DNA of 64,000 nt, taken from the NCBI RefSeq assembly GCF_009805705.1, contig NZ_VSMB01000002.1:186001-250000 (forward strand). Direction: 5' to 3'. Under the pieces are notes generated by a model. The model did not search any database. It saw nothing but the letters and a program-made list of their open reading frames with translations, and was not told the origin of the DNA. The position numbers were made by a program, and so were the translations under genes. This DNA comes from Ruania rhizosphaerae. Lineage in GTDB: Bacteria; Actinomycetota; Actinomycetes; Actinomycetales; Beutenbergiaceae. Shown piece by piece: positions 2,682 to 45,126 of this stretch (position 1 is its first letter; every line of letters starts with the position of its first letter).

Positions 2682-2689
2682 CTCCACGC

Positions 2690-4367: not shown

Positions 4368-4369
4368 CC

Positions 4370-21298: not shown

Positions 21299-21388
21299 CT
21301 GCAGCACGGGTAGTAGATCACTCGTGGGACCGACCGGACGTATGCTGGCATCGCGCCGATGGCGCCCGCTAGGCGAGAAGGAGCACAC

Positions 21389-25511: not shown

Positions 25512-26618
25512 CTATTCCTTCGCCGCCGTGGACACCATATGTGCGGGCGCCGTCTGCTCGTCCCCAAGGATCATGCGCACGGTGAGCAACGCCACTGCTT
25601 CCGGCGATCCGCTGACGCGAAACCAGGGAGGCCTCCCACCCGACTGCGAGTGCTCACTTTCAACTCGCAGTGACAGGTCCTTAAACATGCTCAGTTCTGT
25701 CATCGCGACGCTGGCCGACCAACCGACAGGTTCAACGGTCGCCGAGATCATGGACCGACGCCGGCCCGGAATGATGCCGGCCAGTTCACATTCATGCTTC
25801 AGGAACGTGGTGACGATGTCGGGCGAACCACCGGCGTTCACTCTTCGACCGAGATGCGGCGAAGCGTCAAGATCCGCAACTTGGACCGTCTGCCTGCCGG
25901 CCGGTCTCGTCACGTTGTCGACACGGAGCGTCACGCTCCCGTGATCTATACCCGGAACGGCTTGCAGGCTAGCAACAGCGATTGAGCGCAACTCGGGATG
26001 GGTGCTTCCTCGTGCCTCACGCACGGCTCCCTGCGTCGCCGTCCCGGAACCTTCTGTCGAGGAGGAGACAGCTGAGAGCACCTCGTCGCCAGCGACGAGG
26101 CAGTCCAAAGTCACGCCGCCGCGGATCGCCTCCAAGATGAAGGTCCCTCGCCGGTCGGCTGCCTCCAACGCAGACATTCGAGCGTCTAAGTCTGCTGCGC
26201 TACTCAAGCCAGGGGAAACACGGTGACTTCGTGCGCCACGCGCCTCCCGGATGACCACTGGGTAGCCAACCCGGTCCGCGAACCTGGACGCCGACCTACG
26301 GTGCGTCGACCGCAGTAGGACATGCTCCGAGACAGGGAGCCCACCGCGCGCAAGGAGCGCTCGCCACGACGGTGCGTTCTCACAGAAGCTCTCTCCTGCG
26401 AACGTCGTGCCTGTCGACTCACCACCGATGAACGCTAGGCGTGCAGACGTGTTGTCGTCGCCTGAAAGTAGAGCATCCTTGGGAAGTCGTATCGAAGGCA
26501 CACCATGCGCGAGCATCTCAGCTTGCAGAAGCCAACTGTCTCGCAGGCGCTCTGGTAGACCGTCTGACCATCGGACTAGACCTGTGGGCGGGCTGGCCGG
26601 GCGTCGAAAGAACCTCAT
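25512..26618 (-). CDS. Degenerate ATP-grasp-like protein, last gene of the ligase operon
   Basis: This 368-residue soluble protein has an ATP-grasp layout that can be followed by comparison with its operon neighbours: GGLPVSEHVLL, then GYPVVIREARGARSHRV where other family members have a Lys-Pro-x-x-Gly loop, TFILEAIRGGVTLD for the hinge glutamates, and VQVADLDASPHL in place of the metal-binding Glu-Leu-Asn. The nucleotide-binding Lys is Arg and the metal-binding Glu and Asn are changed, so ATP-dependent ligation by this subunit is doubtful. The last 70 residues (from about LSLRVESEHSQSGG) resemble the end of an acylphosphatase fold. Its start overlaps the stop of the large upstream gene (ATGA). 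It may be a regulatory or binding subunit; I do not recognise a characterised homologue. Confidence 0.7.
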   Translation of the reverse strand: MRFFRRPASPPTGLVRWSDGLPERLRDSWLLQAEMLAHGVPSIRLPKDALLSGDDNTSARLAFIGGESTGTTFAGESFCENAPSWRALLARGGLPVSEHVLLRSTHRRSASRFADRVGYPVVIREARGARSHRVSPGLSSAADLDARMSALEAADRRGTFILEAIRGGVTLDCLVAGDEVLSAVSSSTEGSGTATQGAVREARGSTHPELRSIAVASLQAVPGIDHGSVTLRVDNVTRPAGRQTVQVADLDASPHLGRRVNAGGSPDIVTTFLKHECELAGIIPGRRRSMISATVEPVGWSASVAMTELSMFKDLSLRVESEHSQSGGRPPWFRVSGSPEAVALLTVRMILGDEQTAPAHMVSTAAKE

Positions 26619-29263
26619 GAACGAACCTCGAACTCCTCAGGCACCGGTACGGCCGCGTGAACCGTTTCCACACTCTCGATTCCAGAGCCCCGCGGCCCAG
26701 CGAACGCAAGAGAGGCGAGCGCCGCAACCGGAGCACTCGGGCCAGCTACGAGTGCACGGGACGCTTCCCTACCTTCAGCTTGGATCCAGCCGGACACGCC
26801 AAATGCTCGGGCACGGGATGCAAACCACTCTCGATACTCTTCGCCGGCACGTCTACCTCGGGTCGTCATGCGTAGCGTCAGCTCTTGAGCCGCATCGTCC
26901 GTAATCGTCAGACCACGCCTACCCGCCACCAGCCGGACGATTGCTCGCGAGACCTTGCTCGGGCGACCATATAGCGGGAACTCATTGCCGCTTTGCGACG
27001 GGTGAGCATTGAGTTCGCAGATAGCTGCTCGCTGCTCCGACAATGGCTTAGAAAGGTCCGGAATAATCCAGTCAACCCCCGAGAATGACAGACCTGGGAT
27101 CGCTTTGACTGCCCGCACAGACGCCTCCACGAACGACGGGTGAAGAACATCAATGGCATCCCGCGTTTCTCCACCCTGCTGCGGATTTGGATTGGAGCTA
27201 AATATCACCTCGCGACCATCCGTGAGAACTGTGTCATACGTGACCCCCTGGCGCTCAAGTTGATGGCGAGTTCCGGCGTCAAGCTTGATGGGCCTGTTCA
27301 TCAGGTGCGGATTGCGCATTCGCATCTCATGCTTAAGAAGTAGCAGTTCCCCCACGGTCCGTTGACCGTCGCCAATCACTGCTCCATGGGGCCATTGGAT
27401 CATCGACAGAGCGTCGTCTCCTACGACAAAGACTCTGCCGCTTGTTCCTTCAATTTGCTCTTCTACGATAACATCTCTGTTCTCGTACCCCGTACCCTTC
27501 AGCGAATCGAACGCATACCGCATTTCCGCTGCGTCGTGAATATCCGTTACCACACCTCGCCCACCAGTACCGCGCAGCGGCTTGAGAACTACAGGAAATC
27601 CGATATGCTTCGCATATTCAATTGCTGGCTCGATTTCATTCGGGCCAAACCGATCTCCGTTAGGCACCGGTATACCAGCACGCTGAAGCAGTAAACGCGT
27701 CGAATGCTTGTCGCTCGTGATGGCCGTCGCTGTTCGCGACGAAGCGGTCGACTTTGTCCACCAGAATCCGATCGAGCGATCCGGGCCATCGTTGGCGACA
27801 AAGCCGACCTGGCTCGTCCTAAACGTACCTAGGCCGAGCGCAAGGCACTCTCGCTCCAAAAGGTGGCTATCGAGCTGTATCTTTCCGAACTCGCGCAGAT
27901 GTGCCGACTCATACTTATTAATTGGGATAGGTCCGCTGCTGACGTCGGGAAGCGTCGGGAACCAAAAATGACGTCTTGTAAACGGAATTATTGCGTCGTA
28001 CGCGAGCGTCGCACCCAACCCGGGATGCGGGCTGTTCGTATGGACGCTCGAGCCAGCCTCGAACTCGACTAGCGGCTCGGAGATCCGAGCCACAGGGCCC
28101 CCTGGCGGGGCCGCCGTGATGTAGTCGAGGCGCGGCATCGCCTTGGCTAGATTGACGAGGGACCACGTCGTGATGTCGCTAGTCCCTACCATCCCGCCGA
28201 CACAGATCCGCATGTCCGGGTCGAGCTCGACAGCACGACGGGCAAGATCAAGGCTCGCGAGAAGCCCGCCTGCTTTGGCTGTCTTGATGTTGATGGCACG
28301 ACAGCCGCCGTGCCTGTGCAACCACTCCAGATCAGTGGTGTCCCACAAACTCTCGTCAGCCATGATGAGAATCGTGCCGCTGCCATAACCCTCGCAGAGT
28401 TTGTCTGCCTGACGCTGAAGAGCGGGAAGACGTTCTCTAGAACTATGCGGGACAGGTTGTTCGAGAGTCACCTCTCGCGGCAATCTGCCCTCACCAATAT
28501 CGCGCGCCACTCTCTCTACAAAGACGCCGGCTCCCGAGGAATCGAGACCTTCGTTGAGATCCATCCAAATCGGCTTTTCAGCCGCCGCACGCACATTTGT
28601 CTCGTGAACTACGCGGAGGATATTCAGGTCACCGTCTATATCACCGGAGCCCTTGACCCGAATCATCGGAAATCTATGCGCTTGCTCCAAAACTTTAGAT
28701 CGGATCTCGTCTTCACTGTTCTGGTTCGACAGCGTTCGCACCGAGACCTGGACACTGCGACGCTGTTCGCCCAGGAGTTCCGATATTGTACAGTTGAGAC
28801 AGCGGGCGATGAGGTCCAGCAGTGCCACTTCCAAGCCTAGAGTAGTGCCGTGAAACGGCCTTTGTGCGTTCGCTTCCTCACTATGCTTTTCTGCAACTTC
28901 CCGCACGCCAGACATTATTTCACGGACCGACGCCACTGCACTTTCACGAGTCTCGACGTCTACGGTCTGTCCGACCAGCGCCTTGGCGGCCTCAGTGGCG
29001 AAACTCCACGCAGCGTCGGCGTTCAGATCACCGGTCAACTTCCGCCGTGGATGGGACTCCCCCACTCCGACCACTTCCTGACCCGCGTGAGTGCCGTGGA
29101 GCCGGATGAGGAAGCTCGTCGATGCTCGCGTCACTCCCCTAGCGGTGCCATAGGGCCGTCGAAGAGGCATCGTGTACTCGAGGGCATGTGCCCGTTCAAT
29201 GCTTAACATTGCCACATCCAATGGATCTCCAATTCGGCGACAATCTTCACCCGGTGATGCCAT
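26615..29263 (-). CDS. Fusion: dipeptide-epimerase-like enolase domain + CphA-like ATP-grasp + degenerate acylphosphatase
   Basis: This 882-residue protein has three modules. Residues 20-420 are an enolase-superfamily MLE/dipeptide-epimerase barrel with an apparently complete catalytic set: Lys204 (IRVKGSG), metal ligands Asp235, Glu268 and Asp303, and opposing Lys327/Lys330 (INIKTAKAGG). Residues 460-780 are an ATP-grasp domain of the cyanophycin synthetase type, with GFPVVLKPLRGTGGRG, hinge EEQIEG, the GDGQRTVGELL insertion and metal site ICELNAH (750-752). Residues 795-870 follow the acylphosphatase pattern, but the catalytic Asn is replaced (GWIQA for GWVRN) and the loop reads GEEYR instead of GVGYR. 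It could join two amino acids and epimerise one stereocentre of the product. The start at 29263 overlaps the free acylphosphatase gene by 17 bases; Met19 at 29209 is an alternative. Local GC is clearly lower than in the flanks. Confidence 0.85.
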   Translation of the reverse strand: MASPGEDCRRIGDPLDVAMLSIERAHALEYTMPLRRPYGTARGVTRASTSFLIRLHGTHAGQEVVGVGESHPRRKLTGDLNADAAWSFATEAAKALVGQTVDVETRESAVASVREIMSGVREVAEKHSEEANAQRPFHGTTLGLEVALLDLIARCLNCTISELLGEQRRSVQVSVRTLSNQNSEDEIRSKVLEQAHRFPMIRVKGSGDIDGDLNILRVVHETNVRAAAEKPIWMDLNEGLDSSGAGVFVERVARDIGEGRLPREVTLEQPVPHSSRERLPALQRQADKLCEGYGSGTILIMADESLWDTTDLEWLHRHGGCRAINIKTAKAGGLLASLDLARRAVELDPDMRICVGGMVGTSDITTWSLVNLAKAMPRLDYITAAPPGGPVARISEPLVEFEAGSSVHTNSPHPGLGATLAYDAIIPFTRRHFWFPTLPDVSSGPIPINKYESAHLREFGKIQLDSHLLERECLALGLGTFRTSQVGFVANDGPDRSIGFWWTKSTASSRTATAITSDKHSTRLLLQRAGIPVPNGDRFGPNEIEPAIEYAKHIGFPVVLKPLRGTGGRGVVTDIHDAAEMRYAFDSLKGTGYENRDVIVEEQIEGTSGRVFVVGDDALSMIQWPHGAVIGDGQRTVGELLLLKHEMRMRNPHLMNRPIKLDAGTRHQLERQGVTYDTVLTDGREVIFSSNPNPQQGGETRDAIDVLHPSFVEASVRAVKAIPGLSFSGVDWIIPDLSKPLSEQRAAICELNAHPSQSGNEFPLYGRPSKVSRAIVRLVAGRRGLTITDDAAQELTLRMTTRGRRAGEEYREWFASRARAFGVSGWIQAEGREASRALVAGPSAPVAALASLAFAGPRGSGIESVETVHAAVPVPEEFEVRS

Positions 29264-29537
29264 CTACGACGTCGAACCCATCGCGCGGCTCAACCGCAGA
29301 TCGACTGGCAGTTACGACTGAGACATGGCCCGTCGCTGGCCCCTGCCTGCTACGTGCCAACACATAGCCGACGTCACCAGGTTCACCGCATAACAGCGCC
29401 TCCACCGCACCGTCATCACAGTTCCTCACCCAGCCCGACACTGACCGCTTGCTGGCTTGGCGCGCTAACCAGCGACGATAGCCAACGCCCTGGACGCGCC
29501 CCTCGACACGTATCCGCCAAGCCTGCATTTCAGTCAT
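29247..29537 (-). CDS. Free-standing acylphosphatase
   Basis: This 96-residue protein is a canonical acylphosphatase with GRVQGVGYRRW carrying the phosphate-binding Arg21 and GWVRNCDDGAVEALL carrying catalytic Asn39. Acylphosphatases hydrolyse carboxyl-phosphate anhydrides, exactly the type of intermediate formed by ATP-grasp and Mur ligases on either side. The start overlaps the stop of the upstream Mur-ligase fusion (ATGA), and its end overlaps the downstream fusion by 17 bases, so it is locked into the operon. Residue Met4 is an alternative start. In vivo it may clear or edit acyl-phosphate intermediates; that is inference. Confidence 0.92.
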   Translation of the reverse strand: MTEMQAWRIRVEGRVQGVGYRRWLARQASKRSVSGWVRNCDDGAVEALLCGEPGDVGYVLARSRQGPATGHVSVVTASRSAVEPRDGFDVVDGITG

Positions 29538-32500
29538 AGATCGTGATCACCCTTTGACCGCAGCCCCTTCGCTACACTCCCGAATCTCGTGTTCGCACTC
29601 GACCCCTTGACCAGCACAGTGTCACCGGATTGCAGTCGATCTCTCACCAGCGCTGGCAACTCGTCCACTTCATGCGCGTGTGGCCCGCAACGCTCGCCCA
29701 GCGCAGATCGCAGACGGTCCATGTCGTTCCCTGTGGTGAATACGAGATCAACGTCATTCTCAATCAGGCCCTCAGCCAGGCTCGCATGAATGCGCTCTGC
29801 CTCGTCGCCTAGAAAGTTGATCTGTCCGAGCACCGCAATACGACGCCCAGATCGATTCGCGCCAAACTTCCAGAGAAGCTTAAATGATGAGTTCATCGAG
29901 TCAACCGTCGCATTCGTCGAATCGTCAATCAGCAGCGCGGTCCCACCACGTACCGGTATCTCATGCAAGGCCGTGACGTTGTCCTTAGGAGCGTACGTTT
30001 CGAGTCCGACACGAATGTCGTCCACGCGCATTCCCAATGCCTGTGCGCAAAGCAGCGCACCGAGACCGTTCAGCACGGCCCCTTCGCCAACGGTTTGCAT
30101 CCGGTACTCGAGGCGTGTCCCGGATAGCTCGACCTCGATCTTGGAACCGTTGATGTCGACGTCCCAATTCAGCAACCGGCAGTCTGCGGCGACTGATCGA
30201 CCGAATGTCCTTACCGAACTCGCCCCAGCTACCTCCGCCCGCTGCCTCAGCTCTTCGGAGTGCGGCGTGTCAGCGTTTATTATAGCCACGCCACCGGGCG
30301 CCATGCGGTCGATCAAGCTGCCCTTTATTCTCGCAGTATCGGCAACGGTAGGTGCGATATCTCTATGTGCGAGGCCGATCGCCGTGATGATAGCAACATC
30401 GGGATTGATCATATCCGCAGTTGAGTGACCTGGAATCCGAACGAATCCAGAAATCGCGGCTTCCACAACTGCGACATCGCTGGTATGGTCTAATCCGGAA
30501 AGCGTATTCGAAACACCATCAACTGTGTTCCAGTTTCCATAACTGGAAGAGACGGACATTGAACGTTGGAGGATATGCGCGAGAATCGCCGCCGTCGTAC
30601 TCTTTCCGACAGTCCCGGTAATTCCGACCACATTTCCTGAGTAGCACCTTCGCATGAGGTGAGCAACGTTCCATGTTGCTTCTCGACTATCTCGAACCTT
30701 CAAGTACGGCACTTCCAGGTCGGGCGGCTCCTGCGATCCCATGATCGCAACCGCACCCGCGGCAACCGCGCGCTTGCAGAGTTCGTCACGACCGTATCGA
30801 GACTGACGGGACGATCGACGCAACCGTTGCGTCCACGTCGCAGCGTCCATCAACACCAACACCGATCCCGGCACTACCTGGTCCAGGAGAAAGGTAATTC
30901 GTGACGGCACAGCATCAGGTTCGGTCAGATTTGCCCACGATCCGCTGAGGGATCGCCCGAGCACCTCGAGTGACGGAACCGATCCTTCTGATGGCGCCGA
31001 CTCTACGTCATTTGCCCGTGCGGGATCGCCTGTCACCGCTACTTCTCGTGTAGGACGATCATCTTTGGGTCTCTCGGCCTCCGCGCGCTGACCGTGCTCA
31101 TCCATCACTTCATTGGGTCTTGGGCGCACGAGGCGGATCACCCGTGACTTCAGCCGATGCCGGAGGCTCTTCGCTCGCGGGTCGCGCACCCTCCCCTCTC
31201 GCACGCGGAAGCCCGCTCTGGGCACCGTCTCACTTGTGCGAATTTCAAGGTCTGAAACACTCACCCCCGACGGGCCTTCGCAGAGCCGACTGATCATCTT
31301 CGTCGTTCGCTTACCCGTGCCCCGCATGAGGACATCGACAGCGCCGTCTTCACGAGTACAAACCCATCCATGAATGTCGTGTTCTAGAGCCGCGGCATAC
31401 AGCCAGTCGACGTAACCGTGGGCTGCGAGGCCGTCTCCCTTGATCGTGATCCGCCAGGACCTTGCCTTCGGTCGCTCTGAAGCGTCGGCTGCGGAGCGCG
31501 CTTCGGTCGTTCGCGCCGCTGCGGTCTCGTCACGTATCGGACGCCTCACCCCCTTGGCGTACTGTTCCTCCACATATGGGGCCAAGCGCTCCAGGTCGAC
31601 CTCAGTCCCCAAGCCAGGACCTTCCTGCCGGCGAATGACGTTGCTGCCGGGGCCAGCATAGTTGGACCTAGGGAAGGCGATTGTCTCGACGTTCCTCGGA
31701 GGGACCGTGGTCACATAGTCCAAGCGCGGCATTGCGCGGGCAAGGTTGTGCAGAGCCCAGGCTGTCAGTTCGCTGGTGCCGAGCATGCCACCGATACATA
31801 TTCGGGTTTCAGGGTTCGCGGCTACAGCCGCTTCAGCGAGTTCCAGCGATTCAAGTAGACCTCCAGCCTTGGGGGCCTTGATGTTTATCGCCTTGCATCC
31901 GCCCGCCTGCACGAGCTCTCTCAGATCATCTGCATCCCACATGCTCTCATCAGGCATGATTTCGATTCGGTACTCGGCCGGTAGCCCGCGTGTCCGCAAT
32001 GCGTCATCGGCGACCAGCTGCAAGTCTGCGTGCTTGAGTCCGTCCTGCTTGGGCAAGGGCCCCTCAATGATCGTCGTCGATGGCAATTCGCCAGACTTCA
32101 TCAGGCCAGCCACCTCAGCAACGAAATCAGACGCTGTCTCGAATGTCATGGCTTCATTAAGATCAATCCAGAGCGGCTTTCGCTCTCCGATTCTCTGATT
32201 TCCCTGTACCGCAGCCGAGAGTAGGTCCAAGTTTGATTTGACCCCGGCTCTACCTTTGAGTCTAGTGATCGGAAATCGCGTTTGTCTTGACACTTTCTCG
32301 ACGACATCTGACGCCGCGACAGATGTTGAGATCGTGGAGATCGAAATTGGAACATCCAGTCTCTGCTCTCCAAGCAATTCTGATAACCGGACGTCAAAGT
32401 ATCGTGATACAAGGTCGAGGAGTGCGACCTCTACTCCCAGCAGGGTCCCACGAAACGGTTTCGGTCCATGAATTTCCGTCGAGGCGATGCCTGCGCGATC

Positions 32501-32869
32501 TCTCAGGGTTCGCATGAGGAACTTCACTGACCGGATGGCGTCGGCTGAATTCCTAACATCGATCTTCATTCCTTGTAGCGTTTCCACGCTCTCTACGAGG
32601 AATCGCCACGCGGAACTACGATCTTTCTCTCCGTCTCCGGTCAACACGTGCCTCGGCTGGCTCTCACCCATTCCAACGTACGCCTTTTCGCCGTCTCGAC
32701 CCTCTACGATCACGATGAAATTGGTGCTCGCAGTCGTCTTCCCGCGTGCTGTTCCATATGCCTTTTTCAACGGCATCCTGTAGCGAATGGCGCGGACTCC
32801 GTCGAGAAACAGGTGCGAGCCGACCGTGAGCTCCTGTTCTTCCGGGTCCGGGATGGTGTCGCTACTCAC
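29534..32869 (-). CDS. Fusion: dipeptide-epimerase-like enolase domain + degenerate acylphosphatase + MurF-like ligase
   Basis: This 1111-residue protein starts at GTG 32869, with GAGGAG 7 bases upstream; a TTG further up has no such site. Residues 18-440 are an enolase-superfamily barrel with Lys205 (RLKG), Asp236, Glu269, Asp307 and Lys331/Lys334 all in place, as in L-Ala-D/L-Glu epimerases. Residues 470-555 follow an acylphosphatase pattern (GYVDW, then GWVCTREDGAVDVLM) but lack the catalytic Arg and Asn. After a charged linker, residues 635-1111 form a MurF-type Mur ligase: P-loop GITGTVGKSTT (749-759), Glu803, NAD at 865-867, the DDSTNATVDSMNSS motif and VLVKGSS near the end. Mur ligases add an amino acid or dipeptide through an acyl-phosphate. 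I know no characterised enzyme with this order. Confidence 0.85.
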   Translation of the reverse strand: MSSDTIPDPEEQELTVGSHLFLDGVRAIRYRMPLKKAYGTARGKTTASTNFIVIVEGRDGEKAYVGMGESQPRHVLTGDGEKDRSSAWRFLVESVETLQGMKIDVRNSADAIRSVKFLMRTLRDRAGIASTEIHGPKPFRGTLLGVEVALLDLVSRYFDVRLSELLGEQRLDVPISISTISTSVAASDVVEKVSRQTRFPITRLKGRAGVKSNLDLLSAAVQGNQRIGERKPLWIDLNEAMTFETASDFVAEVAGLMKSGELPSTTIIEGPLPKQDGLKHADLQLVADDALRTRGLPAEYRIEIMPDESMWDADDLRELVQAGGCKAINIKAPKAGGLLESLELAEAAVAANPETRICIGGMLGTSELTAWALHNLARAMPRLDYVTTVPPRNVETIAFPRSNYAGPGSNVIRRQEGPGLGTEVDLERLAPYVEEQYAKGVRRPIRDETAAARTTEARSAADASERPKARSWRITIKGDGLAAHGYVDWLYAAALEHDIHGWVCTREDGAVDVLMRGTGKRTTKMISRLCEGPSGVSVSDLEIRTSETVPRAGFRVREGRVRDPRAKSLRHRLKSRVIRLVRPRPNEVMDEHGQRAEAERPKDDRPTREVAVTGDPARANDVESAPSEGSVPSLEVLGRSLSGSWANLTEPDAVPSRITFLLDQVVPGSVLVLMDAATWTQRLRRSSRQSRYGRDELCKRAVAAGAVAIMGSQEPPDLEVPYLKVRDSREATWNVAHLMRRCYSGNVVGITGTVGKSTTAAILAHILQRSMSVSSSYGNWNTVDGVSNTLSGLDHTSDVAVVEAAISGFVRIPGHSTADMINPDVAIITAIGLAHRDIAPTVADTARIKGSLIDRMAPGGVAIINADTPHSEELRQRAEVAGASSVRTFGRSVAADCRLLNWDVDINGSKIEVELSGTRLEYRMQTVGEGAVLNGLGALLCAQALGMRVDDIRVGLETYAPKDNVTALHEIPVRGGTALLIDDSTNATVDSMNSSFKLLWKFGANRSGRRIAVLGQINFLGDEAERIHASLAEGLIENDVDLVFTTGNDMDRLRSALGERCGPHAHEVDELPALVRDRLQSGDTVLVKGSSANTRFGSVAKGLRSKGDHDL

Positions 32870-34061
32870 CGGCAACTCCTCGGTCCGCACGAGGCGCGAC
32901 TTGCAGCACCACAAGCATGATGCTGTGACCCTTCACAGCGCCGTCGATCAGTTCATTTACGAGGTGAGCCATGCGACCAGCGTCGCCGCTGAATGTTCCG
33001 TCGACCCGTCCACCGACCGTGTCAACAGCCCGAATTTCGCCTCTGATGCCCACGCTGCTTGCTGCTGCCACGATGTCGCCGCTGCCCCGCTCGGGGTCGG
33101 GTAGGGAGTGTGCTTCGAAGTCGTAGGTGACCACCTCATTCGGGTCCGAGATCCGCAGCCCTAGGGATCTCGCGTATCGGCGCATGATGCCCTCACTCAG
33201 CCGCTCAGCATCCGTCGGCGCAACCTTTGCTTGCACTGCCAGCCCCGCACGCTCGGAGAACTCCACCACTCCCACGGGCCGGTCATCGATCGCAGCGGTT
33301 GCATCGGGAACCACCAGGTCGAGCGAACAGAGCCCTAGTCCGGGCAGCGCCGCACTGGCACGAAGCGCGAGGTCACGTACGTCCGAATGTGCGATCTCGG
33401 TAACGTCCTCACCGCCGACGATGCTTCCGTCGCTGGGAACACCTTCGCATCGAATGACGGACCGGACCTCACCGTCACTGACCAGGACCCGCAAGTACTC
33501 ACCTGATAACTGCTTCTCGACCACGAACATGTAGCCCGGCGGCACGACGAGGCGGCCGTTCTCTTCACCGGGCTCTCTTAGTTCGGTCAACCCGTAGGCA
33601 GAGCGGCTGAACCCTTCACGCTCGCTGGTCGGATTCCGAAGATAGTCGATCGCCGCATCGAGGTCGGCTTCGTCGTGGATGTCGCGAAAGGTCTCGATGC
33701 CGTTGTCACCTACCGCGGGCTTCACCACGACCGGGTACCCAAGCTTCGACGCTGTCCGCTTGGCTGCCTCGATTCCGCGACCCATGGTGAAGGTCGCACC
33801 CGGCGGAACCGGCACACCATTGCGCTCAAGCAGCCCACGCTGCATCCGCTTGTCTTGGGCGTAGGTAATGGGGCCTAGCGCGCTGGTGCCAGGCACGCCG
33901 TGAACAAAGGAAAGTTCCACGCCGTCATCACTTCGCACGTAGCAGACCTGCCGCGGGTAGACCTCAATCGGCAGGTTCGCGCGCAGCAGGGCGCGAAGCG
34001 CGAGTACTCCGTCGAGTTCGGATGCGGCGATCGGTGCCAGTTCGTGAGTATCAGCGGACAC
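32862..34061 (-). CDS. ATP-grasp family protein (possibly with degenerate acylphosphatase tail)
   Basis: This 399-residue protein has an ATP-grasp core (about 65-300): LLERNGVPVPPGATF, then GYPVVVKPAVGDNG with Lys114, hinge VVEKQLSGE with Glu182, and VVEFSERAGL (Glu267) where relatives have Glu-x-Asn. The Asn-to-Ser change at the second metal site weakens the case for normal catalysis, although the first Glu remains. The segment from about 335 (SVGIRGEIRAVDTVGGRVDG) resembles the second half of an acylphosphatase domain. The GTG start has AGGAG 10 bases upstream and lies inside the end of the previous gene (11-base overlap). Its N-terminal 60 residues have a C-rich strand (RQVCYVRSDDG) not seen in the other copies. 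A ligase or ligase-partner role in the same peptide pathway is inferred. Confidence 0.8.
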   Translation of the reverse strand: MSADTHELAPIAASELDGVLALRALLRANLPIEVYPRQVCYVRSDDGVELSFVHGVPGTSALGPITYAQDKRMQRGLLERNGVPVPPGATFTMGRGIEAAKRTASKLGYPVVVKPAVGDNGIETFRDIHDEADLDAAIDYLRNPTSEREGFSRSAYGLTELREPGEENGRLVVPPGYMFVVEKQLSGEYLRVLVSDGEVRSVIRCEGVPSDGSIVGGEDVTEIAHSDVRDLALRASAALPGLGLCSLDLVVPDATAAIDDRPVGVVEFSERAGLAVQAKVAPTDAERLSEGIMRRYARSLGLRISDPNEVVTYDFEAHSLPDPERGSGDIVAAASSVGIRGEIRAVDTVGGRVDGTFSGDAGRMAHLVNELIDGAVKGHSIMLVVLQVAPRADRGVAGE

Positions 34062-36639: not shown

Positions 36640-36691
36640 GGGCAACCTCTCCTGATCTCGCCGCCATGCGGCCCGTTCTGCACTCACGCCA

Positions 36692-37429: not shown

Positions 37430-38598
37430 ACCGGCTCGTCAACGACGACAGCAGGCGGCTCAGCGTCCATCGCAGCGCGGACTCCACGTTCAGCGTAGTA
37501 GGCACGCACACGCGGGTCGGCGAACAACGGTTGGTGCGACTGGAGCACGTTGACACCAGTGTTGATGTTGGCCTCCAGCACCAGAGGGCCGTCCGGACCG
37601 ATCACGATGTCCCAGCCGACGTACTCCATGAACGACAGCACGCGAGCGGCGTGCATCACCAGGTCACGGGTCTCCTGCCAGTACGGCAGCACCACACCGT
37701 TGATCGGCGCACCGGTGTCCGGGTGCGCGTCGAACCACTCCTTGACGTTGCTGTCCGGCAGTCGCGTGGCCGACCCCAGCTCGCCCGTGTCCAGATCAAT
37801 CCGCGAACTGAGCCCGCCCCGGCTCCAGTTGTCCGACGGCTCCGCACGCCTGCAGCCAATCCGCTGCACGGCGAGGGCGATGAACGGCTCGTTCCCGTTC
37901 GTCACGTCTAGCATCGTCAGCACCCGCACGGTATTGACCGTGTTCGGGTAGAGCCCGCCGACGACGTCGTGCTGGGCCAGGCCACGCTCGACGATGAACG
38001 GCCGGTCGTGCGTTCCCAGCAACTGCTTCATCTGCTCCGGGGCCATCGCTTCGCCGTTCGCCAGGACGGTGGCGGCATCGACCTTCTCGACCGCGACAAT
38101 GTTCTTGCCTTCGGCACCGGCGAGCACCTTGAAGAACACCTTCTCGCCGGGCGCCATCCGATCCAAGTACACCACGATGGGGATGCGGCCCTCCTGCGGG
38201 AAGGGGTGCACGGCGCCGCGGGAGTAGACCCCAAGCAACTCGGGCGAGCGCACGTCCATGGCCCGCAGGAGCAGGTGCGTGGTCAACTTGTTGTTGATGA
38301 CGTCCTGCAGGCGGGCATGGACCATGTACTTGGTGCGGAACAGCCGCTGCAGGTCGGAGACGTACTTCCCATGGCCGGTGTTCTGCAGGTCATAGAGCAC
38401 GGCGCTGCGGGAGAGGAACCCCTTGAGCCAGAATCGCGGGTGGCGCATGCGCAGCGGTACGCGCCACTGGCGTTCCTTGCGGGCGAGCTTGCGCAGTTCC
38501 CGCAACAGGACACGTCCGGCGCGAACCTTGCGTCGCCCACGTCCCAGGACCGTGCGCACCGGTCTGACGGCATCCCGTACTGCACTACCCACAACCAC
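37426..38598 (-). CDS. Sugar-transfer-associated ATP-grasp protein (TupA/ATPgrasp_ST-like)
   Basis: This 390-residue protein belongs to the ATP-grasp group found in capsule and exopolysaccharide loci. Visible features are a basic amphipathic N-terminus, KVFFKVLAGAEGKNIV for the nucleotide lysine region, PFIVERGLAQHDVVGGLYPN followed by VNTVRVLTM, and the metal-binding LEANINTG near residue 350. Members such as TupA are implicated in attaching polyglutamate to polyglucuronate in teichuronopeptide. GAAGGGG lies about 10 bases before the GTG start. It links the amino-acid ligases to the glycan genes and might form an amide between amino acid and uronic acid (inference). Confidence 0.82.
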   Translation of the reverse strand: MVVGSAVRDAVRPVRTVLGRGRRKVRAGRVLLRELRKLARKERQWRVPLRMRHPRFWLKGFLSRSAVLYDLQNTGHGKYVSDLQRLFRTKYMVHARLQDVINNKLTTHLLLRAMDVRSPELLGVYSRGAVHPFPQEGRIPIVVYLDRMAPGEKVFFKVLAGAEGKNIVAVEKVDAATVLANGEAMAPEQMKQLLGTHDRPFIVERGLAQHDVVGGLYPNTVNTVRVLTMLDVTNGNEPFIALAVQRIGCRRAEPSDNWSRGGLSSRIDLDTGELGSATRLPDSNVKEWFDAHPDTGAPINGVVLPYWQETRDLVMHAARVLSFMEYVGWDIVIGPDGPLVLEANINTGVNVLQSHQPLFADPRVRAYYAERGVRAAMDAEPPAVVVDEPV

Positions 38599-38616
38599 GA
38601 TCGCGATCCCCTTCCA

Positions 38617-40716
38617 TCAGATACTCCGTTGCCCGCTCAGACTCTCAGCCACGTCGAGCGCCTCGTCCACCGGCGAACGCGCACCGGGTGGTGCGGTCGC
38701 GAGGGTGAGGGCCGCAGCCGGCTGGAACGCTTGCACGACTTCGGCGAGGCGGCGACGGAAGTATCCCGGCCAGCGAGAAGTATACGGCGCGGCGAACTCC
38801 TCCTGTGGCACCAGCGTCTCGATCGCCACGCCGGCCTTTCGCGCCGCACCGATCCATGACGGGGGCGCGAGCAGCACCGGAAGGAAGGCGTTGCTCAGAA
38901 CGGCGCGCTGCATGATCGCGCGAGTGGTCTCGGCAGCAGCCAGTGACTGGTCCAGGACCACGAAGACGACGGCGGGACGACCGTCGGTGATCGGAGAGGG
39001 TGGTGGGGTCAGCCTGGGCAGCCGGGCAGGATGCATGCGTAGTGCACCGGCCGGTGCCAGGTGATGCAGTGCGCGGGCGTTCGCGGACCGCAGCGCGCGT
39101 TTGGCCTGAACGCCCATTCGTACCACCGGGCGCGGGGCGCGCTGCCGGAGGAGGTTGGCGCCACGACGGGCCACGGTGTGCAGGGAGCGGCCGGCTTGAG
39201 CGGGCGTGTTCCCTCGCCTTACGGCGGAAATCTCCCACCCGCTCGAGCTCTCACGTTCGGGTCGCGACCCAACGGCAGAAGCGCGCCTAGCCATCGCCAG
39301 TTCGACTGTGGGGTCGAGATCGGCCTGCAACTGGTCGGGATCGCCGGCTAGCACCACGCGCCCGATCGCGCAGGTGTCCACGATGCCCGAGACACGTGCA
39401 GCGAGGTATCGCTGCCGGTCACCGGGCTCCAGGCCTGCAGCGACCTCCGGGATAGTCTCCACCTGCGCTCGGCGCACGAGAGCTGTCGGAGCATCGTCAG
39501 CGGTCAGCAGCACCACCGGCACCTCGTCCTCGGGGAGCGCGAGCGCCGCGAGCACGGAGTCGGGCGAGTCACCGCGGTGGGGCAGCACCACCAGGGTTCG
39601 CGGCTCGGGCGCCACCTCCGCTGATCGCTCGCTGGTTTGGGACGTCTCCCCCGAGGATTCGGCGGGCCCGATGAGTTCGGCCAGCCTCCGTGCGTGTGCC
39701 TCGTAGCTGAAGCGCTCGCGTACCAGGGCCACCCCGTGTGCGGATTGACGCTGATAGGCATCAGGGTCCGCCGACAACTCGTCGACGGCGGTGCGTGCCT
39801 CACCCGCAGTGGCATACACGCAGGCGGTTCCAAAGGTCGGCTCGAACGAGGCATCCACCACGGCCACAGCCCCGGAGGCCAGACCTTCGAGGACGGTCCG
39901 GCCGAATGCCTCGACCAGCGCCGGGTGGTGGTAGTACACGAGAAAGTCGATCGATGCGAGGTACTGGGCCGGTGTCACCGAGTTGAACGGCAGGTCGACC
40001 CAGTTCCCGGGTAGCCGGCCCAGCACGTCACGCGGCGCCTCGGTGCCGCCCAGCACCTGCACCGAGTAGCGCGGATCGTCCGGGTAGGCGGCCAAGATCT
40101 CCTCCTTGGTGGCGGGCCACTTGCTCCAATGCCCGCGGCTGTGCCTGCCGATCACCGGTCGGCGGTCCACCACGCCCTCACGCGGGACGTGCCAGGAGTC
40201 GACGTCGACGATGTTCGTCCAATCCGTCGCCAGCATCGGCACCTCCCCGGCGTGGTGCGCCAGCGCCTCCCGCACCGTGGGACCGATCGGAGCCCACACC
40301 GGCTCCCGCTCACCGAAGGGCCGGGCTGCCCTCTGCGTCGCCCACACGTCGTAGTAGGGCGAGTGCGCGCGCGGGTCCACCGGAACCTGGTTAGCCACGA
40401 TCAGCACGTGTTCAGCCCTCACCTGGGGCAACCACGGCGGCGTCGACGCCAGGACGCTCGGATGCCGGATCACCAGTACCTTCGCCGAGACCGGCCCATC
40501 GAGTACGAGCTCGGCTGCCCCTGACTCCACCAGCGCCCGGATCCTGGGCGCGAACGGATCCCCAGGCCGCTGGATCGGCGAGGGCAGATGGAGCAGTCCC
40601 GTGCGGTAACCGGCCCGGTTCTGTGCGAGCGTCTCCTCCACCACGCTCGCGGTGGTGCCACCGGGGAACCGGAGGTCGGTCGCCATCAGCACGTCGAAGG
40701 CGTGCGACTCAGTCAT
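38617..40716 (-). CDS. GT4-like glycosyltransferase with C-terminal extension
   Basis: This 699-residue protein has a GT-B-like first half (about 1-350). FPGGTTASVVEE marks the N-terminal acceptor-domain loop; RPVIGRHSRGHWSKWP opens the C-terminal donor domain, and HHPALVEAFGRTVLEGLASG is the family EX7E-type donor-binding motif. The remaining 340 residues include an Ala/Arg-rich region and a second alpha/beta segment (AVVFVVLDQSLAAAETTRA) that I cannot assign; it may be a partner domain related to the small protein encoded just upstream. It overlaps that gene by 8 bases and is 18 bases from the ATP-grasp_ST gene. It probably adds a sugar to the glycan on the cytoplasmic side. Confidence 0.8.
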   Translation of the reverse strand: MTESHAFDVLMATDLRFPGGTTASVVEETLAQNRAGYRTGLLHLPSPIQRPGDPFAPRIRALVESGAAELVLDGPVSAKVLVIRHPSVLASTPPWLPQVRAEHVLIVANQVPVDPRAHSPYYDVWATQRAARPFGEREPVWAPIGPTVREALAHHAGEVPMLATDWTNIVDVDSWHVPREGVVDRRPVIGRHSRGHWSKWPATKEEILAAYPDDPRYSVQVLGGTEAPRDVLGRLPGNWVDLPFNSVTPAQYLASIDFLVYYHHPALVEAFGRTVLEGLASGAVAVVDASFEPTFGTACVYATAGEARTAVDELSADPDAYQRQSAHGVALVRERFSYEAHARRLAELIGPAESSGETSQTSERSAEVAPEPRTLVVLPHRGDSPDSVLAALALPEDEVPVVLLTADDAPTALVRRAQVETIPEVAAGLEPGDRQRYLAARVSGIVDTCAIGRVVLAGDPDQLQADLDPTVELAMARRASAVGSRPERESSSGWEISAVRRGNTPAQAGRSLHTVARRGANLLRQRAPRPVVRMGVQAKRALRSANARALHHLAPAGALRMHPARLPRLTPPPSPITDGRPAVVFVVLDQSLAAAETTRAIMQRAVLSNAFLPVLLAPPSWIGAARKAGVAIETLVPQEEFAAPYTSRWPGYFRRRLAEVVQAFQPAAALTLATAPPGARSPVDEALDVAESLSGQRSI

Positions 40717-41182
40717 CGGGCAATCCTGTCATCCCCTCCTGCGGATGGCGGAACCGGCTCGCTCTGTTCATCACAGCCTTCCGTAGCCGCTGCACAGCCG
40801 CCTGCGCCCGCCGCGGGACCGTCCGGGCGGCGGGCACGGGCAGCGCTCGTGCGGCGCGCAGCACGTTCTCACGCGAGGTCGAGGAGACCATGCGCACGTG
40901 GTGGGCGCCCCAGATCCTCCGAGCTTCAGCGCAGGTCTCGGCATCTGCGGCCACCACAAAGCGGCAGATCGCCGCCACCGGGGTGTGCAGATCGGCCGGC
41001 TGCTCGGCCACGAGCATCGTATGCAGCCCGCGCCGTTCGATGTCGATGAGCAGACCCAGCAACGGCCCGGCAAGGTGTCGCGGGCCCTCCGCAGAGACTC
41101 CAGGCACCAGCACGGTCCGCGTCGGCGCCGGTAGGCTGGCGGCGGGATCGAGCACCAGCACGCGGCAGGAGGACACAATCAT
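40709..41182 (-). CDS. Small hypothetical protein in the ligase/glycan operon
   Basis: This 157-residue protein starts at ATG 41182, which overlaps the stop of the asparagine-synthase-like gene by one base (TGATG). A longer frame upstream is Pro/Arg-rich and is rejected as a shadow. It opens with strands IVSSCRVLVLDP and RTVLVPGV, then GPLLGLLIDIERRGLHTMLVAEQ and FVVAADAETCAEARRIWG, an alternating alpha/beta pattern similar to the extra C-terminal part of the next glycosyltransferase. The C-terminus is strongly basic. No catalytic motif is visible and no family was recognised. Tight coupling on both sides argues that it is real. Confidence 0.65.
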   Translation of the reverse strand: MIVSSCRVLVLDPAASLPAPTRTVLVPGVSAEGPRHLAGPLLGLLIDIERRGLHTMLVAEQPADLHTPVAAICRFVVAADAETCAEARRIWGAHHVRMVSSTSRENVLRAARALPVPAARTVPRRAQAAVQRLRKAVMNRASRFRHPQEGMTGLPDD

Positions 41183-42741
41183 CACCGCATCAGCTCCGTC
41201 GGATCGATGTTCGTCAGGGTTCCTTCGTACCGGCGGGTCCACAGGCTCAGCATGGCCAGTCCCCGGACCAGATGCTGGCCGCCGGTGGTGGAGAGCACCG
41301 CCTGCCAGTCCGACGGCGTCCCTTCCGCCAGGCGCCGGGAGACCAGCGGCCGTACCGGTTCGGCACGCAGCAGATCTCGCAGATGCGTGATCGCCTCGCG
41401 GGATGTGGCCCGGCGCGGGTGGGGGCGTGGCCACGGGACCAGGTCCTGGGCAGTGGACATCGCGCCGAGCTCCTGGTCGAAGGTGCTGGTCAGGAGCGGG
41501 TACAGGCGACCGTCGCGGTGCTCGTCGGGCGACATGGCCAAGGCGGTGGACACCAGGTCATCGGTGAGGAACGGCGTCGCCACTGGGCCTGCGGCTGCCA
41601 CCAGCCCGTGCGGCGCGAGGCTGATACCGGGAAGGGTCCGGGTGAGGTAGGCGGTGAACGTGTGGCCGAACGGGTGGTCGAGGTAGCGGCGCACGATCGG
41701 CTCGGTATCGGCCTGGATCCGGTCACGCAACCGCTCGACGACTCCGGGCGCGAGCACGTGGGAAGCGGCCGCCAGATAGCGCGTCCCCCCCGCGATTCGC
41801 TGGGCGGCGACGGGCTCGCCGGGAGCCGGATCGGCGAAAGCACCGCCCACGAACAGTCCGCCGCCCAGCCCGTCGAGCACCGTTGGCGCAACTGCGTCTG
41901 GCGCTCCGGTTCGCGCTGCCGCGAGCCGGCGCACCAGCGGGACGAGCCAGACGTGGAAGGCGGTCTGGTAGTCCACGGCCGAACCGAAGTGGGCCAGGTC
42001 GGCCGCGAACGCATCTCGCCGTGGCATCACGATCTCGTGCGGGACGCCGAGGTGCTCGGCCACCCGGGCCGCGACCAGTTCCTCCATGACCGTCCCGGTG
42101 TCCGAAGACGTGGTGTAGGCGTGGACGCCGTGGCGCACGCCGGCGTGCACGGCTGCGGCGAGCAGCAGCCGTGAGTCCCACCCACCGCTGAGCATCGAGA
42201 CGAGCGGTCCGGACCGGGCCAGGTCCGCGACAGTGGATCGGAACACGGCCAGCAGATCATCGACCGTCGCTCCACTCATCTCGAGGGCGGGCCATGACCA
42301 GTGCCGGCTACTGACCACCTCACCGGCGGCGCTGCGCCGCACTCGCTCACCCGGTTGCAGTCGCCTCACCTCGCGCACCATCGTGCGACCACCGATCGGG
42401 CCGCTCGCCGCGAGCATCTGGGCCACCGCGTCCCAGTCCGGGCTCGCCGCGGTGGGGCGCGTGCGAATCAGCGCGTCGAGATGGGAGGAGAAGACGATGC
42501 TCTCCCCATCGTCCTCGACGTACAGCGGGATGGCGCCGGAGGCGCCTGCCCGCAGCTCGGACGCTTCCTCACCCTCCTCGATCGTGATGGCATCGCGACC
42601 AGCTCGACCTGCCGCCTGACCGCTGAGAACTGGCCCGTGGCTCCACTCGATACCGCCGGGCCGGCGCACTGCCCCCCTGGCCAGCACCACCGTGGTCGCC
42701 GATTCCAGCACCACCGGCACCTCACCCCACGTGCGCGCCAT
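41182..42741 (-). CDS. Asparagine synthase-like protein
   Basis: This 519-residue protein has the ATP-pyrophosphatase domain of asparagine synthetase B: MLSGGWDSR (SGGxDS loop, 185-190), a second part with EELVAARVAEHLGVPHEI, and a Cys-free helical C-terminus with RLYPLLTSTF. The N-terminal 150 residues follow the glutaminase-like fold (FSSHLDALI, LQPGERV) but there is no Cys2 nucleophile, so glutamine hydrolysis is not expected. Such proteins adenylate a carboxylate and join it to an amine: asparagine, lasso macrolactams, beta-lactams or sugar amidation. It is the first gene of the 11-gene minus-strand operon, 195 bases from the divergent ATP-grasp gene. Its part in the pathway, possibly a final amidation, is inferred. 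Confidence 0.82.
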   Translation of the reverse strand: MARTWGEVPVVLESATTVVLARGAVRRPGGIEWSHGPVLSGQAAGRAGRDAITIEEGEEASELRAGASGAIPLYVEDDGESIVFSSHLDALIRTRPTAASPDWDAVAQMLAASGPIGGRTMVREVRRLQPGERVRRSAAGEVVSSRHWSWPALEMSGATVDDLLAVFRSTVADLARSGPLVSMLSGGWDSRLLLAAAVHAGVRHGVHAYTTSSDTGTVMEELVAARVAEHLGVPHEIVMPRRDAFAADLAHFGSAVDYQTAFHVWLVPLVRRLAAARTGAPDAVAPTVLDGLGGGLFVGGAFADPAPGEPVAAQRIAGGTRYLAAASHVLAPGVVERLRDRIQADTEPIVRRYLDHPFGHTFTAYLTRTLPGISLAPHGLVAAAGPVATPFLTDDLVSTALAMSPDEHRDGRLYPLLTSTFDQELGAMSTAQDLVPWPRPHPRRATSREAITHLRDLLRAEPVRPLVSRRLAEGTPSDWQAVLSTTGGQHLVRGLAMLSLWTRRYEGTLTNIDPTELMR

Positions 42742-42936: not shown

Positions 42937-45126
42937 GTGACCCATGGTGCCGACGATTCATCGGCGAGAACGGGCAACCCTGTCCGTGGCTCGGTGGAAG
43001 CGCATGTCCTGGCCAATCTCGGCCTGCTTGCATCATTGCGCCCCCAGGTCTACGAACCTCACCACGAGGTGCTCAAGCGCGAACTCGACGTCGTCCGCCT
43101 GGAAGAGGCGGCTCGGCGGCAAGGGCTCGAGAGTATCCGGATGGATCCGTTGGTGCGGGTTCTCCAGGACGAGTCCCGTGCGCTGGGCTTCTTCAAGAAC
43201 ATGTCCTCCCGCGTCCTGTACCTGGATCGCGCCACCACCAACCGCAAGCACCTGACTCGCCGGATCCTCGCCCGTCACGACATCCCCCTGGCACGCGGTC
43301 TCGAGGCCCGCGATGCCGATGGCCTCGTCGAGGCCTTTCGAGCGATCGGCCCGCCGGTCGTCGTCAAGCCCGTGACCGGGAGCGGAGGCACCGGTGTGGT
43401 CACCGACATCACGTCCCTCGACCAGGCACACGCGGCGGCAGCGCCGGTCCTCGCTGCGGGGCGTGGCGTACTCGTCGAGGAGATGGTTCACGGCGTGGAC
43501 CTACGGATCAGCGTGCTGGAGGGACGTTCGGTGGCGGCCACGCTGCGGGTGCCCGCCAACGTCGTCGGTGACGGTCGCTCGACGATCGCTGAACTCGTGG
43601 CAGCCAAGAACGAGTTGAGGTCCCAGAGCGACTACTTGCGTCACCAGCCCATCATTCTCAGTGAAGAAAAGGATCGGTTCCTCGCCCACCAGGGCTTGAC
43701 GCCCGCCAGCATCCTCCCGGCGGGTCAACGGGTGCTGCTCCACCACGTCGCCAATCTCTCCGCCGGTGGCGACAGCTACGAGGTGCACCCGTTCCTGCAC
43801 CCGGAGATCACGGCCCTGGCCGAACGGGCAGCTTCCTTCTTCTCCAGCTCGTTGCACGCCGGGGTCGACATCCTGCTGGAGCGCCTGGACGCACCCCTCG
43901 ATGAGCAGCGCGCCGTCGTGTGCGAAGTCAACCTGAACAACGAGATGCCGATGCACGTCTACCCGATGTACGGCACGCCCGTGCCATTGGACGAGCTGGA
44001 ACTGGCCGCACATTGGCGCGTCGAATCGACCATCCCCGCCCACACCTTGCGCGAGGAGAGTGCACCGGGCGCCGTCACTGTCCACATGGACGAGGTCACC
44101 GAACTGGCTCGGCCTTCCTACCGACCACCAGCCCCGTCGCCATCGGATGGCCACGCCCTAGGGGCAACGCTGCGCTCGCTGGACAACGAGTACCTGCTGG
44201 CGACCTTTCGCTCGATCGACACCGATGCCGAGTTCGCGATCCCCGAAGGTGGGCTGATCCACAGGCGCGACGGTGGGAACGAGCAGGCCGCCGAGCGCTA
44301 CGACCGCACCGTGCTCGCGGGCGAGGTCGGGCGCAACCCGTCAGTGATGCACCGATACGCGAGAGCCTCCGGGATCCGGGTCATGGCGCGGCACCGGTTG
44401 CGTTCCGGACAGCAGGAGCGGGCTCTCGAACTGGCGGGCAAACCGTGGCGGCACTGGCTGCTGCACACCCCTCGCGCCGACGGCAGCACGCGAACCGTGC
44501 GGATCGAGTCCGGCGACCAGCTGGAAGAGCACTGGGCCGCCGTAGAGAAATCGCGTGCCACGATGGTAGAGACCCCGTTCGACCCGGCGTGCGTGCTCTT
44601 GATGGACGCAACCACGCTCCTCGCCGCACAGCTGCGGGTGCCGCTGACGATCGTGGGAGATGGCCGCACCGGGCTGGGCGAACTGGTGGAGCACCACGTA
44701 GCCGCCCGCCGCGCCCACGCTCCCCTGGCGTCTCTCACTACCCGCCTGAACACGCCAGAACTGCTCACGTCGCGGCACCTGGACCCCGGTACCGTGCCCG
44801 CTGAGGGTGAGCAGGTGCAGATCGGGCGGTCCCCGATGCTCTCCGACGGCGCAGCAACAGTCGGCCTGAACGCGCTGCCCTGGCCAGGCCTGGCCGAGTT
44901 GGCCGCTCGCTTCGTCGGGGCGATCGGCAGCGACGGCGTCGCCACTGTGGCCTTCGTGCCACGGCGGCGTGACGCAACCAACGCCACCTGGGCGCTATGG
45001 CGCTACCACAGCGAGCCCCCGCTGGCCCTCTTCCACTCGCCCCTGCACGGGCCTGGGTACGACCCGTACCCCGCGATCGCCCGCCGGGTACTGCAAGGAC
45101 CTACTCGGGAACTCGCGGTCATCTAG
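42937..45126 (+). CDS. Tandem ATP-grasp protein (CphA-like; second copy degenerate)
   Basis: This 729-residue protein begins at GTG 42937, where AGGAGG stands 6 bases upstream; the longer open frame is antisense to the asparagine-synthase-like gene. The first ATP-grasp domain (about 40-360) is complete: VVVKPVTGSGGTGVV (Lys144), hinge Glu181/Glu182, the CphA-type GDGRSTIAELVAAKNEL insertion and metal site CEVN (330-332). The second half (about 400-720) repeats part of the pattern (VGDGRTGLGELVEHH, then AEGEQVQIGRSPMLSDGA) but has no Lys-Gly loop and no Glu-x-Asn, so it looks inactive. It is divergent from the ligase operon and followed by the ABC exporter genes, bridging synthesis and export. 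Confidence 0.85.
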   Translation: MTHGADDSSARTGNPVRGSVEAHVLANLGLLASLRPQVYEPHHEVLKRELDVVRLEEAARRQGLESIRMDPLVRVLQDESRALGFFKNMSSRVLYLDRATTNRKHLTRRILARHDIPLARGLEARDADGLVEAFRAIGPPVVVKPVTGSGGTGVVTDITSLDQAHAAAAPVLAAGRGVLVEEMVHGVDLRISVLEGRSVAATLRVPANVVGDGRSTIAELVAAKNELRSQSDYLRHQPIILSEEKDRFLAHQGLTPASILPAGQRVLLHHVANLSAGGDSYEVHPFLHPEITALAERAASFFSSSLHAGVDILLERLDAPLDEQRAVVCEVNLNNEMPMHVYPMYGTPVPLDELELAAHWRVESTIPAHTLREESAPGAVTVHMDEVTELARPSYRPPAPSPSDGHALGATLRSLDNEYLLATFRSIDTDAEFAIPEGGLIHRRDGGNEQAAERYDRTVLAGEVGRNPSVMHRYARASGIRVMARHRLRSGQQERALELAGKPWRHWLLHTPRADGSTRTVRIESGDQLEEHWAAVEKSRATMVETPFDPACVLLMDATTLLAAQLRVPLTIVGDGRTGLGELVEHHVAARRAHAPLASLTTRLNTPELLTSRHLDPGTVPAEGEQVQIGRSPMLSDGAATVGLNALPWPGLAELAARFVGAIGSDGVATVAFVPRRRDATNATWALWRYHSEPPLALFHSPLHGPGYDPYPAIARRVLQGPTRELAVI

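Follow-up and report, generated by a model that had tools for sequence, protein, structure and literature searches.

In Ruania rhizosphaerae we identified a locus of 12 genes that represents a conserved, apparently undescribed variant of peptide–glycan polymer systems. The locus lies in a 64,000-nucleotide stretch of the 4.43-Mb genome (contig NZ_VSMB01000002.1, positions 186,001 to 250,000), which we call the window and from whose first letter all positions are counted. The minus strand carries eleven genes, g01 to g11, between 42741 and 25512; gD diverges from them and ends at 45126. The explanation that we favor, to which we give about an even chance, is that the locus makes a cytoplasmic oligo- or polypeptide, which would be attached to a surface glycan of the teichuronic type and leave the cell through the adjacent ATP-binding cassette (ABC) exporter of the ABC-2 type. 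Its observed basis is the gene content, the conserved order, the states of the active-site residues and the pairing of g06 with g07, and from these we infer every mechanistic step.

The gene set recurs in relatives, which rules out an oddity of the window alone. An earlier note on this DNA, made from the letters alone, had proposed a candidate undescribed system for forming peptide or amide bonds and had staked the proposal on co-occurrence elsewhere; we found that the AsnB-like amide synthetase (g01), the sugar-transfer-associated ATP-grasp protein (ATPgrasp_ST, g04) and the signature ligase g06 share one locus in 14 other genomes. No account of the combination was found among the matches listed in the open-access literature, a scope that leaves most subscription journals outside. 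The g06 ligase, which combines ATP-grasp and acylphosphatase domains, was found in 18 genomes and is rare but scattered through Actinomycetota. AsnB and ATPgrasp_ST are each present in the locus in 15 of the 18; the genomes missing them there are G007 and G729, whose assemblies are broken at the locus, and G1305. In G007, AsnB sits on another contig.

As the genome samples overlap, they were counted separately. The family sample contained g06 in 4 of 24 genomes (E ≤ 1e-3), all within the genus, among them G006, presumed to be Ruania albidiflava DSM 18029. An order sample of 396 genomes (E cut-off 1e-25) added G292 and G090, and a phylum sample of 396 (1e-30) added G763 and G729, in whose order 2 of 36 genomes carried the gene (1e-60). 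At a cut-off of 1e-90, it was found in 8 of 394 genomes of the class sample, six of them belonging to family f107, in 1 of 60 of the family of G292 (G292 itself) and in 5 of 197 of the family of G090, all of one genus. In the order and phylum samples, 60 and 30 of the 396 genomes, respectively, passed the E cut-off, and g06 was called only at about 50% identity or more; matches below that were taken, by identity and coverage, as other ATP-grasp proteins. G007 was counted as a carrier at 76% identity over a part of the gene. Within the order sample, g04 and g06 orthologues were each found in 6 of 396 genomes, 5 being common to both (Fisher P value 4.5e-10, kinship not corrected for). A scan of contigs with two peptide patterns matched only R. 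albidiflava; both patterns come from the epimerase part, which is less conserved among the orthologues. Within its own genome, g06 had nine matches, the ninth being a separate acylphosphatase; since eight of the nine sit in the locus, their clustering is beyond chance. The nearest other MurF-like gene of the genome is on contig C42.

To describe the relatives, the window-domain profiles were run over 19 locus rows, and a 20-row locus table was used for the counts of PGA_cap domains given below. In that table contig ends truncate the rows of G007 and G729, and the row of G963 stops at the edge of the fetched stretch (extended later), and the proteins of relatives are stop-to-stop open frames, so their lengths are upper limits. 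The order AsnB, g02, GT4-type glycosyltransferase, ATPgrasp_ST, racemase, g06, g07 is kept in nine genomes of two families: those of the window, G001 and R. albidiflava in the genus Ruania, and G813, G881, G941, G955, G963 and G978 in f107. A divergent tandem ATP-grasp gene resembling gD adjoins AsnB in all of them except G941. G292 has the core genes without the racemase, and there g07 precedes g06. AsnB and ATPgrasp_ST are arranged in other ways in G090, G1243, G1257, G1282 and G763, with a GT4 match over the threshold in all but G763 and a racemase only in G1282 and G763. G1305 carries g06, g07, Mur and another ATP-grasp gene, with no AsnB within the 50 kb examined, and G182, which is without g06, has AsnB, g02, GT4 and ATPgrasp_ST together with several ATP-grasp, Mur and PGA_cap modules. 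In G1257 (C1, L164–L166), two sets of AsnB, ATPgrasp_ST, GT4, g06 and g07 stand about 36 kb apart.

The block downstream of this core, g08 to g11 in the window, varies between genomes, recombining epimerase, ligase and phosphatase domains. It consists of one Mur and one ATP-grasp gene in G001, of a 1821-residue frame joining epimerase, Mur and ATP-grasp in G007, and in G955 of a frame of 1696 residues in which a second g06-type ligase is combined with PGA_cap and ATP-grasp. An IS481-like transposase lies within the G090 locus (L119:10079-11236) and fits mobility of the block. In the window, the GC content at third codon positions is 0.60–0.70 in g07–g11 versus 0.76–0.87 in g01–g06, gD and the exporter genes, which would suit independent acquisition of the block; g07, however, belongs to a conserved pair.

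That pair is a constant element of the locus. The g07 gene adjoins g06 in all 22 copies and forms a single open frame with it in G729. Distances between g07 domains track those between g06 domains (r = 0.84, 21 pairs, none of 20000 permutations as high, all on one tree). Shared species history adds to this correlation, and duplicate pairs are thus the better evidence: G881, G955, G963 and G1257 have two g06–g07 pairs each, and in eight of eight cases the nearest relatives of both partners fall in the same genome group. All 22 g07-type ATP-grasp domains are shortened by an internal segment, and none has the last Asn ligand, which is Ser in 17. We read g06 and g07 as probable subunits of one ligase in which one nucleotide site is atypical.

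The window genes were searched with Pfam and NCBIfam profiles, the listings being in some cases the best 25 matches. All 12 open reading frames are intact, without internal stops, and the eleven packed minus-strand genes and divergent tandem ATP-grasp gene of the earlier note were thereby borne out, with their modules matched by the profiles. The preferred starts are GTG at 32869 for g08, giving an 8-base overlap with g07, about 41185 for g02, and GTG at 42937 for gD, with an AGGAGG-like site upstream; with these, adjacent minus-strand genes overlap or lie at most 18 bases apart. The AsnB-like amide synthetase g01 (41182–42741) matches PF00733 at 38.6 bits and has the PP-loop SGGWDS; it scores below the asparagine synthase B equivalog (TIGR01536, 54.9 versus 267), and its called start is without an N-terminal Cys. 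The PP-loop is kept in 16 of 16 AsnB frames checked, and a start-like Met-Cys-Gly/Arg pattern appears close to the beginning of the frame in 5 of the 16, all from f107 and not in that of the window. The small protein g02 (40709–41185) had no Pfam match, searched as a longer open reading frame, and no NCBIfam match; in several relatives its homologues separate AsnB from GT4. The GT4-type glycosyltransferase g03 (38617–40716), with a long C-terminal part, is conserved in position and scores 17 bits against PF13524, below the cut-off of 25. The earlier note had taken g04 (37426–38598) as TupA-like; PF14397 (127.6 bits) is the sole family listed for it at E ≤ 0.1, which corrects the identity to ATPgrasp_ST. 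The Asp/Glu-type racemase g05 (36692–37429; PF01177, 140 bits) exceeds the cut-off of the cysteate racemase model (NF052483, 225 versus 190), as do six orthologues: all seven tested passed the CuyB cut-off (213–238 versus 190). As a lead only, this points to an acidic, possibly sulfonated D-residue as a building block.

A theme recurs in the remaining genes: g06, g08 and g10 each combine an MR_MLE (epimerase-like, enolase-superfamily) domain, an ATP-grasp or Mur ligase and an acylphosphatase, some parts being degenerate, and g07 and g11 have only ligase and acylphosphatase-like parts. The core ligase g06 (34051–36732) contains, by profiles, alignments and a fold search of a low-confidence model, a degenerate MR_MLE part, an ATP-grasp domain with the key residues and an acylphosphatase with Arg and Asn. 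Its constant partner g07 (32862–34061) has, by Pfam and alignment, a shortened ATP-grasp domain with Ser for the last Asn ligand and an acylphosphatase-like tail. From profiles and residue alignments, g08 (29534–32869) has an MR_MLE domain with the full catalytic set, a degenerate acylphosphatase and a MurF-like ligase that scores below the subfamily cut-off (TIGR01143, 222.9 versus 288.6). A free acylphosphatase with Arg and Asn, g09 (29247–29537), scores 68.8 bits against PF00708, and the domain in g06 scores 58, both above the cut-off of 22.5. Profiles and fold search give g10 (26615–29263) an MR_MLE domain with the full set, an ATP-grasp domain with the key residues and an acylphosphatase-like domain without Asn, which scores below the Pfam cut-off, as does the MR_MLE trace of g06. 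A degenerate ATP-grasp part and an acylphosphatase-like tail make up g11 (25512–26618), known from weak NCBIfam ATP-grasp traces and with no Pfam match. In gD (42937–45126, plus strand), profiles and alignment find a tandem ATP-grasp with the key residues in half 1 and a degenerate half 2. Most of the domains listed by the earlier note thus stood in the profile searches; it had not split out the epimerase-like part of g06 or the acylphosphatase-like tails of g07 and g11.

The states of the active sites divide these modules into live-looking and degenerate ones, with residue roles in the ATP-grasp, acylphosphatase, MR_MLE and Mur families as we take them to be. In an alignment of 115 ATP-grasp domains, the key residues are found in g06, g10 and half 1 of gD and not in g11 or half 2 of gD. 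The full Lys/Asp/Glu/Asp/Lys set of MR_MLE is present in 8 of 28 domains, two of them in g08 and g10 of the window and the other six in relatives; in g08 and g10 the first Lys of KxK is Arg. An MR_MLE part is detectable in 14 of the 22 g06 copies, none of which has the full set, and an active epimerase in g06 was rejected, its catalytic residues missing. A fold search with g10 gave the dipeptide epimerase 3q45 as its top match. The g06 model matched enolase-superfamily folds only moderately, at target TM-scores of about 0.4–0.6, and acylphosphatases at about 0.8. The structure models are weak (mean predicted local distance difference test score 62.6 for g10 and 54.3 for g06, with most of the ATP-grasp part below 50), and we therefore conclude nothing on the mutual orientation of the active sites. 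The acylphosphatase domains of g08 and g10 are without one or both catalytic residues. Six Mur invariants (P-loop, Glu, His, Asn, Arg, Asp) are kept in seven of eight aligned modules, from which a partial match in G090 was excluded.

Domains of the PGA_cap (CapA) type suggest a link between related loci and capsules. They occur in 10 of the 20 locus rows, in several cases as fusions with ATP-grasp, Mur or epimerase parts; none was found in the four loci of the genus Ruania. The PGA_cap domains of G941, G955 and G978 have a full-set epimerase on one side and an ATP-grasp part on the other (the latter degenerate in G941), which is the position of the degenerate acylphosphatase in g08. By eye, PGA_cap motifs appear largely retained. 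The G182 and G090 loci add BspA-type leucine-rich repeats; fusions of PGA_cap and these repeats to ATP-grasp, or to Mur across two stretches, were seen at L119:2499-6218, L123:12419-17197 and L124:2-3655.

The teichuronopeptide of Bacillus halodurans is a glutamate polymer with a uronic-acid wall polymer, and TupA is associated with it. It resembles the expected product, a peptide plus a uronic-acid glycan, in a comparison by product type; no TupA family was listed for the window ligases. A passage of a 2013 review calls the L-polyglutamate synthetase of B. halodurans unidentified and possibly an ATP-grasp enzyme, and likens CapA to phosphatases (PMC3815933). Cyanophycin synthetase, CphA, has an ATP-grasp domain homologous to those of g06, g10 and gD half 1, including the nucleotide and metal residues, and, as an excerpt of one paper has it, itself joins ATP-grasp and Mur-type domains (PMC11915815). 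In contrast to CphA, the window proteins score far under the cut-off of its model (TIGR02068; g06 193, g10 173 and gD 211 versus 850), the MurF-like module is on another protein, and epimerase and acylphosphatase domains are added. The Pgs/Cap poly-gamma-glutamate synthases share the PGA_cap (CapA) domain with related loci, but no CapA, CapB or CapC was among the matches listed for the window locus, and the PGA_cap domains of relatives are mostly in multidomain frames. In methanogens, pseudomurein peptide ligases cluster Mur ligases with an ATP-grasp gene for a wall peptide; we liken them by description only, and their ATP-grasp is, according to the same excerpt, carbamoyl-phosphate-synthetase-like (PMC11915815).

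The surroundings of the locus bear on export and on sugar nucleotides. Beyond gD, on the plus strand, follow an ABC-2 exporter permease (45207–46112; PF01061, Wzm-like at 45.8 bits, below cut-off), a TagH/Wzt-like export ATPase (46099–46968; NF010065, 193.7 bits, below the cut-off of 538) and a glycosyltransferase (47020–48087; PF13524, PF00534). A phosphomannomutase/phosphoglucomutase on the minus strand (48329–49768; NF007088, 687 versus 618) stands beside the locus also in G001 and G006. Two nucleotide-sugar dehydrogenases span 20132–22648, with a mannose-6-phosphate isomerase near. The gene at 20132–21298 is closest to a UDP-glucose dehydrogenase model, below its cut-off (599.8 versus 757). 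Its plus-strand neighbor (21359–22648; TIGR03026, 423 versus 190) is likely of the UDP-N-acetylhexosamine type; its identity as a UDP-glucose dehydrogenase was weakened, the best specific model being UDP-N-acetylmannosamine dehydrogenase (254.6 versus 459, below cut-off). A dehydrogenase homologue is in the locus in 13 of 18 genomes and exporter domains in 11 of 18. As judged from gene content, these export and sugar-nucleotide genes fit a teichuronic-type glycan.

Other features of the window were noted. An NMT1/taurine-type ABC importer (permease, binding protein and ATPase) lies at 22728–25461, between the sugar dehydrogenase and the operon, and in the stretches fetched from the Ruania relatives no homologue of its permease or binding protein was detected. 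A galactan-use cluster with a GH42 beta-galactosidase, a GH53 enzyme and sugar ABC transporter parts is at 83–7924. Two long open reading frames at 50758–55769 (534 and 1163 amino acids) had no NCBIfam match at E ≤ 1e-5 and may not both be genes.

Several observations weigh against an exported peptide–glycan. The g06 gene is missing from four of the eight genomes of the genus; the racemase was not seen in the fetched stretches of several carrier genomes, and no exporter was found in those of seven of the 18 (G292, G955, G978, G1243, G1257, G1282 and G1305). Only 7 of the 18 genomes show a full-set epimerase within the fetched stretches, and G001 is not one of them; the Arg and Asn of acylphosphatase are both kept in only 23 of 36 domains (those of g06 and g09 included; the g07 and g11 tails fall outside the 36). 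The Mur module of the window is without the invariant Arg, the only one of the six that it lacks, and by eye other family motifs are changed too. Three amide-bond chemistries together with two stereochemistry-changing enzymes, as described in the earlier note, are thus present as genes and not necessarily as active enzymes, because the g06 epimerase, the g08 and g10 acylphosphatases, the window Mur and AsnB are without expected residues. Its glycan-linked product is supported as to the glycan link by gene content, that is, by GT4, the TagH-like export ATPase and the nucleotide-sugar dehydrogenases, and its interpretation is partly supported, holding in outline.

The patchy occurrence of g06 within the genus and the variable block with its lower third-position GC would also suit a soluble specialized metabolite, a small D-residue peptide such as an antibiotic or metal-binding compound, made by the ATP-grasp, Mur and AsnB enzymes, exported through ABC-2 and glycosylated by the sugar genes; an excerpt of one report describes an engineered route that combined an ATP-grasp ligase and a dipeptide epimerase for a small peptide (PMC13338154). 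However, the neighbors have envelope-glycan functions, the export ATPase is closest to TagH/Wzt models, relatives have PGA_cap capsule domains, and no regulator or resistance gene was recognized among the 20 window proteins profiled, and we regard this product as improbable, though not negligibly so. Somewhat less probable still is a polyglutamate- or cyanophycin-like homopolymer, for capsule or storage, from the CphA-like ATP-grasp and Mur modules. Among solved structures, cyanophycin synthases are indeed the top-scoring relatives of the ATP-grasp domains of g10 and gD, and PGA_cap fusions occur in relatives, but the distance from the CphA model, the MurF-like Mur in a separate protein, the many different ligases in place of one polymerase, and the presence of AsnB and, in many loci, of a racemase all speak against it. 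We find it unlikely that the system modifies peptidoglycan, in an interpeptide bridge or stem, instead of making a separate polymer: the MurF-like modules and the racemase would fit, and ATP-grasp ligases form D-amino-acid cross-links in Gram-positive-type walls, as a passage in one paper states (PMC2922099), yet half of the genus genomes lack g06, and bridges would not need the GT4, exporter and nucleotide-sugar dehydrogenase of many loci.

Under the favored explanation of a peptide joined to a surface glycan, the conserved core (AsnB, g02, GT4, ATPgrasp_ST, racemase, g06 with g07, and gD) would make and attach a constant part, and the variable block, g08–g11 in the window, would determine the residues added and their stereochemistry. 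Mur ligases activate a carboxylate as an acyl phosphate, and dipeptide epimerases act on the residue bearing the free carboxylate. ATP-grasp ligases likewise form an acyl phosphate from a carboxylate, as stated in an excerpt of one report (PMC13338154). The g06/g07 pair and g10 may convert a carboxylate to its acyl phosphate and couple this to an amine, and the apparently intact MR_MLE domains of g08 and g10 may epimerize the C-terminal residue before extension. With epimerase and ligase in one protein, the ligase could trap one epimer, and the acylphosphatases (the g06 domain and free g09) could remove misactivated acyl phosphates. The glycosyltransferase and ATPgrasp_ST would then link the peptide to the glycan, and the product would leave through the ABC-2 exporter.

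More speculatively, and with a probability that we put at well under even, the system could be a modular assembly line, comparable to nonribosomal peptide synthetases but free of carrier proteins. Each module would consist of an epimerase, an acyl-phosphate ligase (ATP-grasp or Mur) and a phosphatase (acylphosphatase or CapA-type) that hands misactivated acyl phosphates back to the epimerase; stereochemistry would then be selected by the combined action of ligation and hydrolysis. The degenerate copies would be docking or allosteric subunits, and the exchange of modules would give strain-specific surface peptides. The pairing of a complete with an atypical ATP-grasp protein in g06 and g07 would provide a clean test case for pseudo-enzyme function. 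If the assembly line is true, an acyl-phosphatase role would be suggested for CapA in polyglutamate capsules. Should our reading of the locus be right, it would add a conserved family of peptide-building systems drawn from enzymes of primary metabolism, with acylphosphatase and CapA-type domains wired to ligases forming acyl phosphates, and would offer a route to the biosynthesis of peptide–glycan wall polymers such as teichuronopeptide and to the role of CapA/PgsA in polyglutamate capsules.

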